NCBI GenBank assembly: GCA_014860575.1
Contig: JACZJK010000016.1
Coordinates: 62,001-126,000 of the forward strand
Reading direction: 5' to 3'
From: Bacteroidales bacterium
Lineage (GTDB): Bacteria > Bacteroidota > Bacteroidia > Bacteroidales > JAAYJT01
DNA length: 64,000 nt
Both the position numbers and the translations under genes were made by a program. Under the pieces are notes generated by a model. That model ran no database searches and was not told the origin of the DNA. It was given only the letters and a program-made list of their open reading frames with translations. Numbering within the stretch: position 1 is the stretch's first letter; every line of letters begins with the position of its first letter. Below are positions 6,921 to 58,506 of this stretch, piece by piece.

Positions 6921-6956
6921 TGTTGGCAGTTGGAAACTGTCTCAATAGTTCAAATC

Positions 6957-7029
6957 TTGTCATCCTGAACGGAGTGAAGGATCTTTGCGTGTCTGTGTCT
7001 TAGATTCTTCGCTGCGCTCAGAATGACAA
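6957..7029. repeat. Imperfect hairpin repeat of the TTGTCATCCTGA family
   Basis: Two 28-base arms (6957-6984 and 7002-7029) pair at 23 of 28 positions. The right arm, starting AGATTCTTCGCTGCGCTC and ending in GAATGACAA, is repeated base for base at 10496-10523. A related core sits inside the inverted element at 60227-60369. It lies in the spacer between the ACP and the alpha-oxoamine synthase gene and could form a strong RNA hairpin there. Words of this kind are common in bacterial intergenic repeats. Confidence 0.65.
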
Positions 7030-51540: not shown

Positions 51541-51798
51541 AGAAAATTATGAATCTCTGAGCCTGGCCTACCCCTCTCAATGGAGAACCATCATTGCTTC
51601 CCAACGCTTTATTCTCAAATCATGATTTCATACTGAGGTGTATGTAGGAATGGATTTCCGGGTAAGAACTCACTTTTGGGTCGAACACAATCACAGCATT
51701 AACTCTACATCAAATTGTTTTATCCGGATTACGATGATTATGGCCACTACAGCAATAATGTAAACATCACAAAATCAGAGAATAAGTATATGCTCTAA
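51541..51798 (+). pseudogene. Possible relic of an outer-membrane barrel gene
   Basis: The 51350-51903 spacer has no intact gene. From 51632 one frame reads TEVYVGMDFRVRTHFWVEHN, and from about 51705 another reads IKLFYPDYDDYGHYSNNVNI ending at TAA (51796). Both have the alternating pattern of porin strands and could be joined by a frameshift. No start or signal peptide remains. This is weak evidence; the rest of the spacer shows nothing. Confidence 0.25.
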
Positions 51799-51846
51799 CT
51801 CTACCTGATGAATTGAAATAGTTATTACACCTATGCAGAATATTTC

Positions 51847-51875
51847 TTGTGGTTAAACAATTCGGACTAAGTTTG
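51847..51875 (+). promoter_or_regulatory. Bacteroidota promoter for the DUF47-PiT operon
   Basis: TTG at 51847-51849, an 18-base spacer, then TAAGTTTG at 51868-51875, 28 bases before the DUF47 start. Both elements and the spacing fit the consensus. Confidence 0.65.
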
Positions 51876-51903: not shown

Positions 51904-52551
51904 ATGTTTTCATTCAAGCACGCCAACAAATCAATTGAGCTCATTGAACGCTTTCTGAATTCGGTTGACCAGGGTGTTCTCATATTTAAAGAAGGGGTGA
52001 AGAATTATCTTCACAATAACAGAGAAAGCTTTCTTGACAATGTGCGAACCTTGTCAGCCCTTGAAACCGACGCTGATATCATCAAAAGAAAGATTGAAAA
52101 CATCCTTTACACCCAATCGCTTATGCCCCAGTTAAGGGGAGACATTCTTAAATTGCTGGAGAGCCTTGACAATATCCTCGATCTTGCCAAGTCAAACCTT
52201 TACCAGTTTGATGTCGAAATCCCTTTTATCCCTGCTGAAATCCATCAGGATATGATCAAGCTTACCGAATTATCTGGTTCGGCCATTGAATCGGTTATTC
52301 CGGCAGCAAAAGCATATTTCCGGAACCCGGAGGCTGTAAAGGAAAGCCTGCACCGGGTGTATTTATTTGAAAAGGAGGCCGACAAGTTGGCTGATGCGAT
52401 CAAGCGCAAGGTTTTTCATGATATGCCCAACCTGAAATTAAGCGAAAAATTTCATCTCCGTTATTTTACCCTGCACATTGAAACATTATCTGATGCGGCA
52501 CAAAAGGTTGCCGATTTACTTTCAATAATGGCCATCAAAAGAACCATATGA
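51904..52551 (+). CDS. DUF47 (PhoU-like) phosphate-transport accessory protein
   Basis: 215 residues, all helical, of the DUF47/PhoU-related family. Signatures include LETDADIIKRKIENIL and YLFEKEADKLADAIKRKVF, the paired acidic/His metal-binding helices of PhoU-type proteins. DUF47 proteins are encoded next to PiT transporters and are thought to govern their activity. Here the PiT gene starts 13 bases downstream. Confidence 0.9.
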   Translation: MFSFKHANKSIELIERFLNSVDQGVLIFKEGVKNYLHNNRESFLDNVRTLSALETDADIIKRKIENILYTQSLMPQLRGDILKLLESLDNILDLAKSNLYQFDVEIPFIPAEIHQDMIKLTELSGSAIESVIPAAKAYFRNPEAVKESLHRVYLFEKEADKLADAIKRKVFHDMPNLKLSEKFHLRYFTLHIETLSDAAQKVADLLSIMAIKRTI

Positions 52552-52564
52552 TTAATCAAAGCAA

Positions 52565-54313
52565 TTGATGCTGTTTCTCGTTTTCATATCTAGCGGTCTT
52601 TTCCTGGGTTGGTCACTCGGGGCAAATGACGCGTCCAACATTTTCGGTTCGGCGGTTGGTTCAAAGATGCTGAGTTTTAGGAATGCGGCCATTATCGCAA
52701 GTATTTTTGTTGTGATAGGGGCTGTATTTCAAGGCCGCGGAGGCTCCGAAACGCTTAATCAACTTGGCTCTGTTGATGCATTAGGCGGAGCATTTACAGT
52801 GGCATTATGCGCAGCATTTATCGTTTTTATTATGACCCAGCGGAGCCTGCCTGTTTCCACAAGCCAGGCAATTGTTGGCGCAATTATAGGCTGGAGTGCC
52901 TTTACGGGAAATCCGACTGATTACAAGGTATTGGGAAAGATCATGGGATCGTGGGTTAGCGGGCCTTTACTAGGAATGCTATTTGCCGCCGGGCTATTTG
53001 TACTTATGCGTTGGTTTCTGCGAAAAAGCAAAATCCATGTTATTAAACTGGATTATTACATCCGGATTGGTTTGATAGTAGTTGGCGCTTTTGGAGCCTA
53101 CAGTTTGGGCGCTAACAACATTGCAAATGTCATGGGTGTTTTTTTCAGCTCGGCACCGAGTCTCGAACTTGATTTTGGCATCCTTACACTCGATGGTGTT
53201 CAGATACTCTTTTTGTTGGGAGGACTTGCCATAGCGCTTGGAATTTTCACTTACAGCAAACGGGTCATGAACAAGGTTGGAAACGGCATACTCTCACTCA
53301 CACCCGAAGCCGCCATTGTAGTTGTACTGGCCCATTCATTGGTGCTTTTTATATTTTCAGCGCAATCGTTGGCCACACTCATTTCATCATTGGGGCTGCC
53401 TCCTTTGCCAATGGTACCCGTTTCGAGCACACAGGTGGTAATTGGATCGCTTTTAGGTATTGGCATGGTAAAAGGGGTTCGCGAAATAAAGTTTAAAGCG
53501 TTATGGGGCGTTGCAATTGGTTGGATACTTACACCTATAGCTGCCGGGGTACTCACCTATGTTGTGCTGTTTTTTGTGCAGAATGTCTTTAACATGCAGG
53601 TTACACTGAGCCGGTTGCCCGAAACCATTGCACAGCCCAGACCTGCTGAGTTACAAGAAGCTGTTGAAAAAATAAACATGGTGTTGCCCGGAATATTCAT
53701 TGCTGCTGCAGCAATCATTATTGTGCTGGTAGTGCTTTATTTTAACCAGCAGAAACTCAGGATGAAAGCCGAGAACGAACTGTTGTTTGAGCAGAACCAA
53801 TCGTACACATCGCAAAAAGTTTTGAATGAGTTGGCGCTGAATGTGATCCAGATGGAGAACGAATTGCTGAACAGTAAGCTGGAGTCAAAGCGAAGGGAAT
53901 TCATAAATGTGGCGCTTAATATTACCGAGCAGCGGTCATTCCTCGATAATGTTGCAACGGATCTTGACCATATTATTAAAGAAAGCGACCACCAGGAGGG
54001 CAAAAGCAAATTAGCAGAGTTGCTTTTGCTTATCAAACAGAAAATGTCGTTTTCAACTGAAACTGCGGAGTTTTACACAAGGATCGAAAAAATACATAAG
54101 GATTTCCAAACCAAGCTCGAGGCTGGATTTCCTGATTTAACCGATCAGGAAAAACGACTGGCCACTCTACTGCGGGTTAATCTTTCAACCAAGGAAATAG
54201 CTTCGCTGATGAACATTACACCCAAAAGCGTAGAGATAGCACGGTATCGTTTAAGGAAAAAACTCAAGCTAACCAAAGGGGATAACCTGATTCAGTATCT
54301 CACGAATTTATGA
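52565..54313 (+). CDS. PiT phosphate transporter fused to a LuxR-type DNA-binding domain
   Basis: 582 residues. Residues 1-395 are an inorganic phosphate transporter of the PiT family, with the repeated signatures GANDASNIFGSAVG and LGANNIANVMGVFF and about ten helices. A last helix (about 376-393) leads to a coiled coil (about 395-500, QQKLRMKAENELLFEQNQ...) and a C-terminal LuxR-type helix-turn-helix (525-582, with LSTKEIASLMNITPKSVEIA). The tail closely resembles that of Bacteroidota membrane regulators that carry beta-propeller or TPR sensors. The frame is open throughout, so this is a genuine single ORF. It may be a transporter that senses phosphate and binds DNA from the membrane. Confidence 0.9.
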   Translation: MMLFLVFISSGLFLGWSLGANDASNIFGSAVGSKMLSFRNAAIIASIFVVIGAVFQGRGGSETLNQLGSVDALGGAFTVALCAAFIVFIMTQRSLPVSTSQAIVGAIIGWSAFTGNPTDYKVLGKIMGSWVSGPLLGMLFAAGLFVLMRWFLRKSKIHVIKLDYYIRIGLIVVGAFGAYSLGANNIANVMGVFFSSAPSLELDFGILTLDGVQILFLLGGLAIALGIFTYSKRVMNKVGNGILSLTPEAAIVVVLAHSLVLFIFSAQSLATLISSLGLPPLPMVPVSSTQVVIGSLLGIGMVKGVREIKFKALWGVAIGWILTPIAAGVLTYVVLFFVQNVFNMQVTLSRLPETIAQPRPAELQEAVEKINMVLPGIFIAAAAIIIVLVVLYFNQQKLRMKAENELLFEQNQSYTSQKVLNELALNVIQMENELLNSKLESKRREFINVALNITEQRSFLDNVATDLDHIIKESDHQEGKSKLAELLLLIKQKMSFSTETAEFYTRIEKIHKDFQTKLEAGFPDLTDQEKRLATLLRVNLSTKEIASLMNITPKSVEIARYRLRKKLKLTKGDNLIQYLTNL

Positions 54314-54427
54314 ATAAACCCAAATACAGATTATTATAAGGCTTCCATGATTGCAGTATTCTAATTAACAATGAAGACAAGTTATATTCACAAACAGGTC
54401 CATTTATACACCAAAATCAAAATTTTT

Positions 54428-56011
54428 ATGAAACAGAAAAGTGTTTTATTAAGCATCGTGCTAAGCATCTTATGCCTGGTTTCGTTTGCACAAACCCGGA
54501 TTGTTAACGGCAAAGTAACATCTTCGGATGGCGATGTTCCGCTGGCCAATGTCAGCGTACGCCTGAAAGGAGCAATCACTGTTGCCCAAACGAAAGAGGA
54601 TGGAACTTTTTCAATTGAAGTGCATCAGGGATCAACGGATATGTTGATATTTTCACACCCGGATCACGATGAAATTGAATTCTTCCTGAACGGTAACACT
54701 ACGGCCAAGGTTCAAATGACCGTAAACATACGCTATAATCAATACGGCGTAAGGGTAAACCGCAACCCATTATTTGTTGAAGAGCGGAATGGAATCCTTG
54801 TTTTTGAGAACAAGGATCAGACCCATAGGGTTTGGTACGATGTACGCGTCCAGGCTGATGGTGCCATGTTTTTTGGCGAAACCTATAACGATATAGGCAA
54901 TGGAACTTCTATTCGGCGCGCACGTTTTGCAGTTAAAACAGAGTTTGCCAAACATTGGTACGCTGAATTTGATATGGATATTGCCAATTCACAGCTTGAA
55001 CTGAAGGATGCCTATTTACAACGCAGTTTTGGTAAAAACTTTGAATTAAGGGTTGGTAACTTCAAAGAAAGTTATTCGATGGAATCAACAACTACTTCCC
55101 GTTACCTTACATTCATGGAAAGGCCAATGGCCGTTCATTGCTTCGCCCCATCCCGCCACATTGGACTTGCAGCCAATTATAATAAAAACTGGCTACTTGC
55201 CCTCGGCGGCATCTATTTCCAAAAGGTGGATGACATTGAGGAGAGAACCTTCTCACTCGACAATAACAAAGACTTTGGCATAGATGAAGGCTACTCGCTG
55301 ACCGGGAAACTGGTTATCATGCCATTTTATAACGATATGAATAAAGGACTGCATTTTGGTGTGGCAGGTTCATACCGCACTCCCAAATCCGATGCCGAAG
55401 TGGCCGGAACGCATAGGTATAGTGTGCGCTCACTTACTTCCATCAACAGGAAGAAATATATGGATACCGACCTTATCGGGAAAGTTGACAATACAACCCT
55501 GGGCGGTTTTGAACTGGCCGGATATTACAAAAACATCAGGATACAAAGTGAATACCTGATGAGCAGTGTTAACAGGTTAGAGGATTTGGAAACCCTCAAT
55601 TTCGATGGCGGATATGTGTTTGGAAGCTGGCTGCTGTTTGGTGGTAAATACAATTATAACACCAGCGAAGGAGAATTTACCCAGGTAACACGCGGCAAGT
55701 CGTGGGGCGATGTTGAACTGGCCTTACGTTTTGATTACCTCAGCCTGAACAGTGATATGGAAACGCTGATGGGTGGCGCAGGCGAAGGCATAACTTTTGG
55801 CCTGAATTATTACGCAAACAATAACGTAAAAATTATGCTTAACTATGCTTACCTGAACCATGACCGTTATGCAAGTGGAAAGAACAAGCTGTTTGTAGGA
55901 TACGATGCCAATGGCGAACTCACCCGCATCCCACAGCTTGTGGTTGATGGTAAAGGCAAGGCCGGAGAAGACTATAGCATGATAAGCCTCAGGTTCGAAG
56001 TTGATTTTTGA
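54428..56011 (+). CDS. OprO/P-type porin with N-terminal carboxypeptidase-like domain
   Basis: 527 residues from MKQKSVLLSIVLSILCLVSF (signal peptide; an upstream ATG at 54371 is less likely). Residues about 22-115 are a carboxypeptidase-regulatory-like beta domain (RIVNGKVTSSDGDVPLANVS), then a porin of the phosphate-selective O/P type (WYDVRVQADGAMFFGETYND, IRRARFAVKTEF, LKDAYLQRSF). It ends in RFEVDF, an outer-membrane signature. Lying 115 bases behind the PiT fusion gene, it could be under phosphate control; selectivity is not proven by sequence. Confidence 0.85.
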   Translation: MKQKSVLLSIVLSILCLVSFAQTRIVNGKVTSSDGDVPLANVSVRLKGAITVAQTKEDGTFSIEVHQGSTDMLIFSHPDHDEIEFFLNGNTTAKVQMTVNIRYNQYGVRVNRNPLFVEERNGILVFENKDQTHRVWYDVRVQADGAMFFGETYNDIGNGTSIRRARFAVKTEFAKHWYAEFDMDIANSQLELKDAYLQRSFGKNFELRVGNFKESYSMESTTTSRYLTFMERPMAVHCFAPSRHIGLAANYNKNWLLALGGIYFQKVDDIEERTFSLDNNKDFGIDEGYSLTGKLVIMPFYNDMNKGLHFGVAGSYRTPKSDAEVAGTHRYSVRSLTSINRKKYMDTDLIGKVDNTTLGGFELAGYYKNIRIQSEYLMSSVNRLEDLETLNFDGGYVFGSWLLFGGKYNYNTSEGEFTQVTRGKSWGDVELALRFDYLSLNSDMETLMGGAGEGITFGLNYYANNNVKIMLNYAYLNHDRYASGKNKLFVGYDANGELTRIPQLVVDGKGKAGEDYSMISLRFEVDF

Positions 56012-56040
56012 GAAGTCTAAAACATTAATAATTGAAGAAA

Positions 56041-58506
56041 ATGAAAACAAAGTATTTAGTATTGATCGCGCTAGTACTCAGCCTTGCTTTTAATGGCTGT
56101 GTGAAAGATGAAATCTTCCAGGGTCCTCCTATCATCAGTGACATGGTGCTTAATCCGCAGGTTCCTTCCGAAAACCAGGCTGTAACCGTGACTGTGAAAG
56201 TGACCGATATGAATGAATTGAAAACGGTAACATTGCATTACACTCCCGGAAGCGGTGCCAGGGTTTCAATTCCGATGACTTCAACTGTTAACAACCTGTT
56301 TACTGCGCAAATACCTGGACAGGCAGCAGATGTAACTGTCAATTTTTATATAGAGGCTGAAAACAATTCTGGTAAAATATCTTATCATCCTTCCGGCGCC
56401 CCAGCTACAACTGCTGCTTACACAGTAGGTGCACCACTTATTGTTATGAATGAGATATATTCCCGTGGTCTTCCTGAGGATCCGGATTGGATTGAAATAT
56501 ACAATGGTTCTGATGTACCTGTTGATATCAGTGGTTATACAGTTTATGATAATGGAGGTCAATCCGGAGCCAAACCAAAACTTCCAGTTCCCGATGGAAC
56601 CATCATTCCTGCAAAAGGATTTTATGTAGTTGTAACCGATATTGGCGGTGAAAACGGCTTTGGAATTTCAAGCGGAGGCGAAGAACTTTGGCTGGAAAAC
56701 GACAAAGGGAATGTCATTGACAATGTGAATTGTCTGGCTATGGATATTACACAGAGTTATGGCCGCAATCCCGATGGCGTGGGTAGCTGGGAGTTGCTGA
56801 ATACTATCACCCGTGGCGGAGCCAATAGCACATCTGCTCCTGCCCCGCTGGTCAAAATGAATGAAATTTTCAGCCAGGGCGCAGTTGATAACCCGGATTG
56901 GATTGAACTTCACAATGGTTCTAATTTTACTGCTGAAATTGGTGGATATAAAATTTATGACAGCGGCGGACAATCGGGAAGTAAACCGAAATTTGAAATC
57001 CCGGCTGGTACTACCATTCCGGCATTCGGATTCGTGGTTATCGTGGTTGATGATGGAACTGCCAGTGGTTTTGGGCTCTCAAGCGGAGGAGAAGAAGTTT
57101 GGCTGGAAAATGCTGCCGGAACCATCCTTGATAATGCAACCTTCCCGGCACTTGAGGCTACGCAGTCGTACGGCAGATATCCCGATGGCACTGAAAACTG
57201 GCAGGTTTTGTTTGTGGTTACCCGTGGTTTAGCAAATGACAATTCCACTCCTCCTCCACCCGCACCGGTGCTGATGAATGAAATATATTCACGGGGAACT
57301 ACTGATGATCCCGATTGGATTGAAATTTATAATCCTACAAACAATCCGGTTGATATCAGCGGGTATAAAATCTATGACAGCGGCGGCAATGCCGGAACCA
57401 AACCCAAGAAAGAATTTCCGGCCGGAACATCCATCCCCGCAGGTGGTTTTGTCGTGATCGCAACTGAAGGCACAGGCGACGCAAGCGATTTTGGTCTTTC
57501 CAGCGGAGGCGAAACAGTCTGGCTCGAAAATATTGAAGGATCAGCTATAGATAGCATTGCTTTTCCGGCGATGGATGTAACCCAATCCTTTGGGCGCATG
57601 CCTGATGGAACCGAAAACTGGCAATTGCTGAATACAATCACCAGGGGAGCGCCAAACAGCAATGCGACGCCCATTGTCGTACTATTGAATGAACTATATT
57701 CCCGTGGCACAACTGAAGATCCTGATTGGATTGAAATATTTAACGCCTCAACAACCGATGCTGATATTAGCGGTTTCAAGATTTATGACAGCGGTGGCAA
57801 TGCAGGCACCAAGCCTAAGAAAGAAATCCCGGCAGGTACAATCATTCCGGCAGGTGGTTTCTTTGCGATCGCAACTGAAGGCACAGGCGATGTAAGTGAT
57901 TTTGGCCTGTCAAGTGGAGGCGAAAAGGTATGGCTCGAAAATGTAGCTAATACGGTGATTGACAGCGTTGAATTTATAGCAATGGAAGCAACTCAAAGCT
58001 ACGGGCGTTTCCCTGATGGTTCGGAGAATTGGCAGATTCTGAACACGATAACACGGGGTTCAGCAAATAGCAATGCGATGCCAAATCCCATATTTATGAA
58101 TGAAATATTTTCAAGAGGAACTACTGAAGATCCCGACTGGATTGAAGTTTATAACACTTCAACTACAGACTTTGATATCAGTGGGTATAAAATTTATGAC
58201 AGTGGCGGACAGGCCGGCACAAAACCTAAAAAGGAATTTCCGGCCGGTTCAGTTATTCCGGCATCAGGATTCCTTGTGATTGTGGTTGACGATGCCGATG
58301 CAAGCGGTTTTGGATTATCCAGTGGCGGAGAGGAAGTTTGGCTCGAAAATGCAAATGGTGAGCTGATTGACGATATCGTTTTTCCGGCGATGACGGAAGT
58401 CACCTATTCATACGGTCGCAAACCTGACGGATCGGCTAATTTTTTCATCTTCACTGAGATAACCAGGGGCGCTTCAAATAACAATGCTGCAACATTAGGC
58501 AAATAG
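56041..58506 (+). CDS. Lipoprotein with five tandem lamin-tail (LTD) domains
   Basis: 821 residues from MKTKYLVLIALVLSLAFNGC (lipoprotein-type signal, acylated Cys at 20). A domain of about 110 residues (VTVTVKVTDMNELKTVTLHY) comes first, then five lamin-tail domains of about 137 residues, each starting MNEIxSxG..PDWIE and containing GGxELWLEN-type turns and SYGRxPDG. Units 3, 4 and 5 are close in DNA sequence, a sign of recent duplication. It is probably an outer-membrane-anchored surface protein. It lies 29 bases after the porin gene and is likely in the same transcript as the PiT operon. The ligand is unknown. Confidence 0.87.
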   Translation: MKTKYLVLIALVLSLAFNGCVKDEIFQGPPIISDMVLNPQVPSENQAVTVTVKVTDMNELKTVTLHYTPGSGARVSIPMTSTVNNLFTAQIPGQAADVTVNFYIEAENNSGKISYHPSGAPATTAAYTVGAPLIVMNEIYSRGLPEDPDWIEIYNGSDVPVDISGYTVYDNGGQSGAKPKLPVPDGTIIPAKGFYVVVTDIGGENGFGISSGGEELWLENDKGNVIDNVNCLAMDITQSYGRNPDGVGSWELLNTITRGGANSTSAPAPLVKMNEIFSQGAVDNPDWIELHNGSNFTAEIGGYKIYDSGGQSGSKPKFEIPAGTTIPAFGFVVIVVDDGTASGFGLSSGGEEVWLENAAGTILDNATFPALEATQSYGRYPDGTENWQVLFVVTRGLANDNSTPPPPAPVLMNEIYSRGTTDDPDWIEIYNPTNNPVDISGYKIYDSGGNAGTKPKKEFPAGTSIPAGGFVVIATEGTGDASDFGLSSGGETVWLENIEGSAIDSIAFPAMDVTQSFGRMPDGTENWQLLNTITRGAPNSNATPIVVLLNELYSRGTTEDPDWIEIFNASTTDADISGFKIYDSGGNAGTKPKKEIPAGTIIPAGGFFAIATEGTGDVSDFGLSSGGEKVWLENVANTVIDSVEFIAMEATQSYGRFPDGSENWQILNTITRGSANSNAMPNPIFMNEIFSRGTTEDPDWIEVYNTSTTDFDISGYKIYDSGGQAGTKPKKEFPAGSVIPASGFLVIVVDDADASGFGLSSGGEEVWLENANGELIDDIVFPAMTEVTYSYGRKPDGSANFFIFTEITRGASNNNAATLGK

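Follow-up and report, generated by a model that had tools for sequence, protein, structure and literature searches.

A PiT-family transporter continued into a LuxR-type DNA-binding domain: a probable membrane-bound regulator of its own operon in Bacteroidales

In bacteria, the control of phosphate is known mainly through the Pst-PhoU-PhoR-PhoB pathway, in which the step that converts the state of transport into a signal is still debated. Membrane-integrated regulators such as CadC and ToxR have a single TM helix, a DNA-binding domain of a different type from the one considered here, and no transporter. These regulators work on DNA from the membrane, a property that the protein presented below would share. 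The closest known kinds of protein are the 12-TM LuxR regulators of Eggerthella lenta and the fusions of transporters with kinases. DadR, HcdR, and CadR of E. lenta are reported to activate catechol dehydroxylase genes on their substrates (PMC9734109). In the second group, CbrA is described as a signalling protein that also transports histidine (PMC7918813), and Ks-Amt5 as a relative of ammonium transporters with a kinase tail (PMC10433425).

The window, meaning the whole 64-kb stretch of DNA that was analysed, contains a gene with the following parts:

52565..54313, + strand: PiT-TM-coiled coil-LuxR HTH fusion gene, one uninterrupted ORF with TTG at 52565
52568..53599, + strand: PiT (PHO4) transporter domain, residues 2-345, from the PHO4 match and the motifs GAND, PVSTSQ, GANN, and PVSSTQ
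53681..53749, + strand: extra TM helix, residues ~373-395, from a long helix in the model and the positive-inside pattern
53750..54109, + strand: coiled coil or helical linker, residues ~396-515, from the model and similarity to regulators elsewhere in the genome that have a C-terminal HTH
54110..54310, + strand: LuxR/GerE-type HTH, residues 516-582 with the recognition helix at ~553-566, from the GerE match, conservation, and the model

The gene is intact and encodes a complete PiT transporter domain followed by an extra TM helix, a coiled coil, and a LuxR/GerE HTH. A likely alternative start is the ATG at 52568, and the match begins at residue 2 in 12 of the 21 other full-length matches. In Pfam, PHO4 (PF01384) is matched at residues 19-330 with an E-value of 4.9e-58 and 197.2 bits (cut-off 33.7), covering positions 2-349 of the 350 in the model, and GerE at residues 525-577 with an E-value of 2.9e-6 and 27.2 bits (curated cut-off 23.5); Sigma70_r4_2 overlaps the HTH below threshold, with 22.9 bits versus a cut-off of 25.7. 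These residue numbers count from the TTG, whereas those of the AlphaFold model count from the ATG, one codon later. The AlphaFold2 model, built on a 61-row alignment (mean pLDDT 83.6, pTM 0.64), shows the PiT helices up to residue 339, a disordered link at 349-363, a single long helix at 372-470 that comprises the TM helix and the coiled coil, and a helical HTH region at 511-580. Foldseek against the PDB gave both chains of TmPiT 6l85 as the sole matches below 0.001 (E-values of 5e-13 and 6e-13), with the response regulator StyR at rank 50 (107 columns, E-value of 0.21). The whole fusion protein matched TmPiT alone at an E-value of 0.01 in phmmer; for the HTH part by itself, weak matches to FixJ, DosR/DevR, and the response regulator 1yio were obtained (E-values of 0.005-0.02). 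The initial annotation had read this ORF as a PiT transporter that continues via a coiled coil into an HTH, which is borne out by the presence of PHO4 and GerE in a single ORF and by the model. That first reading did not include the extra TM helix, the genes for the porin and the lamin-tail protein that follow, or the site array upstream.

Like the E. lenta regulators (10-12-TM), as outlined in their report (PMC9734109), the protein joins a multi-TM N-terminal domain to a C-terminal LuxR HTH in one chain, and like them it would activate genes for a specific substrate. The comparison is one of descriptions: the portion of that report used here does not describe the 12-TM domain as a working transporter (PMC9734109), while the fusion has a clear PiT/PHO4 domain, and the fusion further differs from the group so described in its extra TM helix and coiled coil, its phylum, its transport operon, and its phased site array. 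With CbrA and MxtR/CrbS (PMC7918813) and Ks-Amt5 (PMC10433425), it shares a transporter fold that is used as, or coupled to, a sensor; those proteins act through a histidine kinase and phosphotransfer, whereas in the fusion the transporter and the DNA-binding domain form a single chain. With PiT transporters accompanied by DUF47 (TmPiT 6l85; SLC20 family) it has in common the PHO4 fold, and the DUF47 partner is also found beside its unfused relatives; TmPiT, with 402 residues, has neither coiled coil nor HTH, and its motif letters differ from the GANN and STSQ of the fusion. Literature searches covering open-licence PMC papers, at the level of titles and abstract starts, showed no report of a PiT-LuxR HTH fusion.

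The search for the same architecture in other genomes, proposed in the initial annotation, gave at least 69 distinct complete fusion relatives for comparison, mainly from Bacteroidota. A genome of the same genus, G002, encodes a full-length fusion protein with 70% identity. Given that this and many other assemblies contain the same protein, a chimera from misassembly, the doubt raised in that annotation, is ruled out. In an order-wide search of 393 genomes, 39 had a match at 1e-50 and 25 of them were fused, including one stop-split gene, one cut at the 5' end, and L026 with its decayed HTH. In a sample of 395 genomes from the phylum, 13 had a match at 1e-80, and the HTH was reached only in the window's own genome. 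The fusion is therefore found widely across the order, and only rarely among the other genomes sampled from the phylum. When the best 80 named loci among the matches listed are considered, 54 match to residue 569 or beyond; these 80 belong mainly to Bacteroidales and Lentimicrobium, and also to Chitinophagaceae, Saprospiraceae, Prolixibacteraceae, and Dysgonomonadaceae-type lineages, with a few MAGs labelled Chlorobiota or Melioribacteraceae, labels that may be binning errors. The fusion gene of L013 (G076) has one TAA separating the PiT half from the rest, which is either an assembly error or a real break. Loci L112, L115, L117, and L188-L196 encode PiT proteins of other groups, in frames of ~480-530 aa, with a C-terminal part unlike the TM-coil-HTH module.

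Conservation was determined from an alignment of 102 distinct proteins, from which eight identical copies and the stop-split L013 had been removed. It comprised 69 complete fusions, 27 unfused relatives, and six proteins cut by contig ends (L028, L033, L059, L084, L098, and L101) that were left out of both groups. Across the 69 fusions the mean majority identity is 0.73 for the PiT part, 0.68 for the HTH, 0.45 for the coil, 0.42 for the extra TM helix, and 0.23 for the periplasmic link, while the recognition-helix segment at 545-566 reaches 0.82 and is more conserved than the PiT part itself. Among 61 aligned members, PHO4 was found in all 61 and GerE in 60 (E-value of 0.01 or better), and L026 (G295) has PHO4 and lacks a Pfam HTH match. 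An HTH model trained on 63 fusions, L026 not among them, gave L026 a score of 52.7, compared with 100.9 or more for the 68 other fusions; five fusions outside of the training set scored 110.5-117.3. The initial annotation had allowed that the DNA-contacting residues might be gone in all homologues; judged by conservation, the HTH is kept in nearly all of them. The position that we take to correspond to the Lys contact of NarL seems to be a Glu in the fusion HTH.

The topology was evaluated from the charge pattern across the 69 fusions, with loops taken from the AlphaFold model. The fractions of K+R in the successive loops of the PiT part are 0.25, 0.05, 0.23, 0.03, 0.26, 0.01, 0.10, 0.01, and 0.35, followed by 0.07 (0.072) in the link at 338-372 and 0.19 (0.186) at 396-425, after the extra TM helix. 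By the positive-inside rule, this alternation suggests a periplasmic end for the PiT domain and a return of the chain to the cytoplasm through the extra helix, so that the HTH would lie on the cytoplasmic side only thanks to this helix. As in membrane-bound one-component regulators, a proposed sensor and a predicted DNA-binding domain are found in one ORF, with the HTH cytoplasmic by its charge pattern.

Eight other proteins of the window's genome match the C-terminal part only, with 28-34% identity within residues 364-582; the matches start anywhere from residue 364 to 432. The extra TM helix is included in the two longest, those of L003 (from 364) and L005 (from 370), while those of L002 and L004 start at 379 and 390. 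Pfam identifies sensor domains in several of them, namely TPR in L003, Y_Y_Y in L002, and Reg_prop with Y_Y_Y in L004. These matches lend weight to the earlier proposals that the HTH is of the type that ends Bacteroidota membrane regulators, given that TM helix, coil, and HTH match the modules of sensor-regulators in the same genome, and that the usual sensor part has been replaced by a transporter. The fusion thus shares its C-terminal module with the Bacteroidota regulators in which a TPR or Y_Y_Y sensor precedes TM helix, coiled coil, and LuxR HTH, and differs from them in having a transporter as the proposed sensor and in the site array described below, given that the loci L002-L008 have no CTCTACA array and show only single scattered sites at score 9. 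The fact that sensor-regulators match from residue 364 or 370 onwards suggests that the TM helix may have arrived together with the module; the extra TM helix followed by a short charged tail in many unfused relatives means that it may instead predate the fusion. Unfused proteins with PiT, extra TM helix, and short charged tail are L035, L096, L097, L099, L102-L109, L113, L114, L116, and L118; many of their tails end in S-E-E-K-F-W-K-N or similar, and no porin was found downstream of them. The Reg_prop/Y_Y_Y regulator L004 lies directly upstream of a gene for a TonB receptor, and the gap between them has no CTCTACA array.

The fusion gene is accompanied on the same strand by three genes:

51904..52551, + strand: DUF47/PhoU_div (PiT accessory) gene, 215 aa, PF01865 with an E-value of 2.3e-18
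54371..56011, + strand: Porin_O_P outer-membrane porin with a CarboxypepD_reg-like N-terminus, PF07396 with an E-value of 2.4e-43; the likely start, ahead of a signal peptide, is 57 bp inside the ORF
56032..58506, + strand: protein with five lamin-tail (LTD) domains, PF00932 with an E-value of 2.7e-79 over 5 stretches, probably the last gene of the unit

From their spacing, the four genes DUF47, PiT-HTH, porin, and LTD would be cotranscribed. DUF47, which the initial annotation put forward as a cotranscribed regulator and which may have such a role, immediately precedes the fusion gene in 65 of 65 loci that leave room for it, and equally the unfused gene in 26 of 26. A relative of Porin_O_P is found downstream in 58 of the 62 fusions with 1 kb of downstream sequence versus 3 of 25 unfused loci. 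The fusions without an adjoining porin are L026, L072, L073, and L091, the last of which has it one gene further on. A lamin-tail relative follows in 34 of the 40 fusions that have 4 kb or more of downstream sequence, compared with 2 of 17 unfused loci, both of which also have the porin; for this count six identical copies were used, given that their twins had short flanks.

Upstream of DUF47, the following predicted sites precede a candidate promoter:

51703..51709, + strand: predicted operator site 1, CTCTACA, PWM score 14.8, in an array conserved before the operon
51745..51751, + strand: predicted operator site 2, CACTACA, PWM score 10.3, 42 bp past site 1
51799..51805, + strand: predicted operator site 3, CTCTACC, PWM score 9.3, 54 bp past site 2
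51868..51875, + strand: TAAGTTTG, a pattern match that fits the TAnnTTTG promoter box

Site 3 is 69 bp ahead of the TAnnTTTG box, which we take to be the -7 promoter element of Bacteroidota, and is missed by the strict pattern, made of CTCTACA and the near forms CACTACA, CTATACA, CCCTACA, and CTTTACA. Direct repeats of the CTCTACA type, on the operon strand within 300 bp before DUF47, are found in 63 of 64 fusion loci versus 2 of 26 unfused loci (L037 and L099, one site each). DUF47 start codons were chosen by rule, and loci with less than 200 bp upstream or no DUF47 in the contig were left out (L024, L043, L083, L089, and L095 among the fusions and L105 among the unfused). The number of sites per fusion locus is one in 10, two in 27, three in 19, and four in seven, so that 53 loci have two or more. 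After clustering, the sites are found in 58 of 59 fusions versus 2 of 26 unfused loci at 90% identity, 54 of 55 versus 2 of 20 at 80%, and 39 of 40 versus 1 of 11 at 70%. The opposite strand has sites in 8 of 64 fusion loci, and about 16% of dinucleotide shuffles have any site; given that the motif was picked after inspecting these promoters, the shuffles only describe its strength, and the real controls are the unfused loci, the pst stretches, and the losses.

The spacings between sites cluster at 11, 21, 33, 43, 54-55, 97-99, and 108-110. A period of 10.95 bp fits best, with R of 0.81 for the 185 pairs of all loci and 0.82 for the 103 pairs that 55 representatives provide, compared with at most 0.35 in 2000 random placements; raw counts and spacings are not independent, since the fused genes share ancestry, while the approximately five losses described below are. 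The operon array supplies the only two strict sites of the 64-kb window that lie within 115 bp of each other; across the 633 kb of loci L039-L095, groups of at least three sites are found in 24 of 57 loci, ahead of the fusion operon. On the minus strand of L094, at 6946-6988 and just past the fusion gene, there are three CTCTACA-type sites with spacings of 32 and 10. The TAnnTTTG box is present in the last 120 bp of 49 of 64 fusion loci versus 15 of 26 unfused loci and is lacking there in the other 15 fusion loci; in 48 of the 49 it lies 23-42 bp before the chosen DUF47 start. A scan for E. coli-type promoters and terminators found promoters at chance level and 12 terminators versus 7.2 expected.

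Whether a wider regulon can be seen was addressed with two coarse patterns. A two-site pattern, applied to both strands of nine genomes, gave 18 matches versus 25 for the reversed-pattern control in the six fusion genomes, and 4 versus 2 in the window's genome (G000). A second pattern gave 46 matches versus 178 in ten fusion genomes, with 5 versus 7 in G000 and 15 versus 14 in G346; this pattern is insensitive, as G302 and G198 were the only genomes in which it detected the operon array, and the array of the window, whose third site is CTCTACC, is beyond its reach. With no further arrays above control in the fusion genomes at this coarse level, the protein appears local and self-directed. In the unfused genome G229, the two-site pattern had 8 matches versus 1 in the control, away from any PiT-HTH operon.

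The loss of the HTH is accompanied by the loss of the sites. In the PiT tree, unfused L078 groups with fused L039 and L047 (100/92), unfused L111 with fused L086 (100/98) and L079, unfused L034 with fused L092 and L032 (92/73 and 100/97), and unfused L100 with fused L094 (100/99), while L026, with its decayed HTH, groups with L048 (91/66). Upstream of L078, L111, L034, L100, and L026 there are zero sites at a PWM score of 7, whereas every fused neighbour named here has at least one. L026 is the sole site-less fusion among the 64, has no porin, and is a natural loss. Among three further unfused rows, L010 and L038 have no sites and L037 has one. The fact that L111 and L010 keep the porin without HTH and without sites means that the presence of the array goes with the HTH rather than with the porin. 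The 11 changes between fused and unfused that the tree counts are an overcount, given that five cut rows were labelled 'non'.

Taken together, it is quite probable that the protein is a membrane-bound one-component regulator with a PiT-family sensor that binds the CTCTACA array and activates its own uptake operon. The PiT domain, with both termini periplasmic, would be connected, through a brief stretch in the periplasm, to the TM-coiled coil-LuxR HTH module, which elsewhere in the genome carries TPR or Y_Y_Y sensors. The membrane-held HTH would recognise the direct repeats, which in the window are found 69 to 165 bp upstream of the operon's -7 box and share one side of the DNA helix, an arrangement that a tethered protein would require. 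What is sensed would be the loading or turnover of the transporter, with low phosphate as the most likely condition, and this may be relayed through the TM helix and the coil to the HTH, which would then activate the operon DUF47-PiT-HTH-porin-LTD, and with it an outer-membrane pore, an inner-membrane transporter, and helpers. The earlier suggestion of DNA binding from the membrane gains support from the conservation of the recognition helix (0.82), the charge pattern, and the HTH-linked array, all of them features of sequence. LuxR-type HTHs are best known on inverted repeats, and the direct repeats found here count against the proposed regulator.

The same protein could also act as a repressor that closes the operon at high phosphate. 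Of the 49 loci with a box, 7 have their nearest site 33-45 bp ahead of it, where a bound protein could hinder the polymerase, and 21 have it outside 65-71 bp (range 33 to 168 bp); in 28 it starts 65-71 bp before the box, mostly with further sites upstream, which suits an activator and makes repression unlikely. That the HTH is a passive passenger or scaffold, serving dimerisation or membrane placement with no role in transcription, is highly improbable: 27 unfused relatives manage without it and its role is predicted from sequence, but the recognition helix is strongly conserved, the HTH is lost together with the site array, and it is associated with the porin. The array could instead be the Pho box of a separate PhoB-like response regulator, with the fusion HTH confined to dimerising or to modulating that regulator. 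PhoB/PhoP boxes, too, typically consist of direct repeats with an 11-bp period, the operon is a phosphate-type one, and PstA-like genes (E-value below 1e-40) are present in 12 of the 23 fusion genomes examined. Nonetheless, 17 stretches around PstA-like genes from these 12 genomes, of 6-10 kb each and scanned whole on both strands rather than as individually located pst promoters, hold a single strict-site pair within 115 bp, in L137 with a spacing of 57 and inside the PstA-like gene by its coordinates, so that no array outside coding sequence is found where a PhoB regulon would have the same box. Eight such stretches from seven unfused genomes, two with less than 2 kb upstream, have no pair. 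The other 11 of the 23 fusion genomes have no PstA-like match below 1e-40; nine of the ten with a measurable promoter have sites, the tenth being L026, and the eleventh, L024, has too little upstream sequence. PhoU below 1e-20 is found in just 5 of the 23 and absent in 18, G000 having no PhoU match, and L010 and L111 have the porin but neither HTH nor sites. Pst loci without arrays speak against a PhoB box, and on these sequence comparisons a Pho box is disfavoured and looks improbable.

It may also be asked whether the PiT domain of the proposed regulator still transports, or is a decayed transporter turned receptor that only senses. Relative to TmPiT, the second motif is GANN instead of GAND, and STTH is replaced by STSQ and SSTQ. 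The same letters are found in the unfused relatives, with GANN in 27 of 27 and the Q in 27 of 27 for the first motif and 26 of 27 for the second, so that they are a trait of the subfamily rather than of the fusion. In the 69 fusions, GAND/PVST and GANN/PVSST are nearly invariant, and their being shared with unfused proteins suggests a similar constraint on the pore with and without the HTH. The fused gene is also the only PiT found in G000 (E-value of 0.001, fusion query); the fusion genome G117 has a second, unfused PiT, which shows that a genome may have another PiT besides the fused one. The example of CbrA indicates that transport activity can persist in a transporter domain that belongs to a signalling protein (PMC7918813). 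From the motifs, a transporter that also signals appears more likely than a dead receptor, for which the chances seem small. Phosphate would be the substrate favoured by the context of DUF47 and Porin_O_P, and the match to the CysP sulfate permease model, with 71.7 bits, is far under its cut-off of 400.

Whether a working phosphate transporter is in addition the transcription factor of its own operon, that is, a one-protein transceptor that acts from the membrane on a helically phased operator, is evenly balanced. If true, it would operate in many genomes that have no classical Pst-PhoU system, and phosphate control would do without a kinase, response regulator, or diffusible signal. With a transporter and a DNA-binding domain in one chain and a predicted operator, the coupling of transport to transcription becomes testable in a single protein. 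This would show how transporters get recruited as sensors, and would provide a predicted phosphate switch for many related Bacteroidota that are largely known from MAGs.
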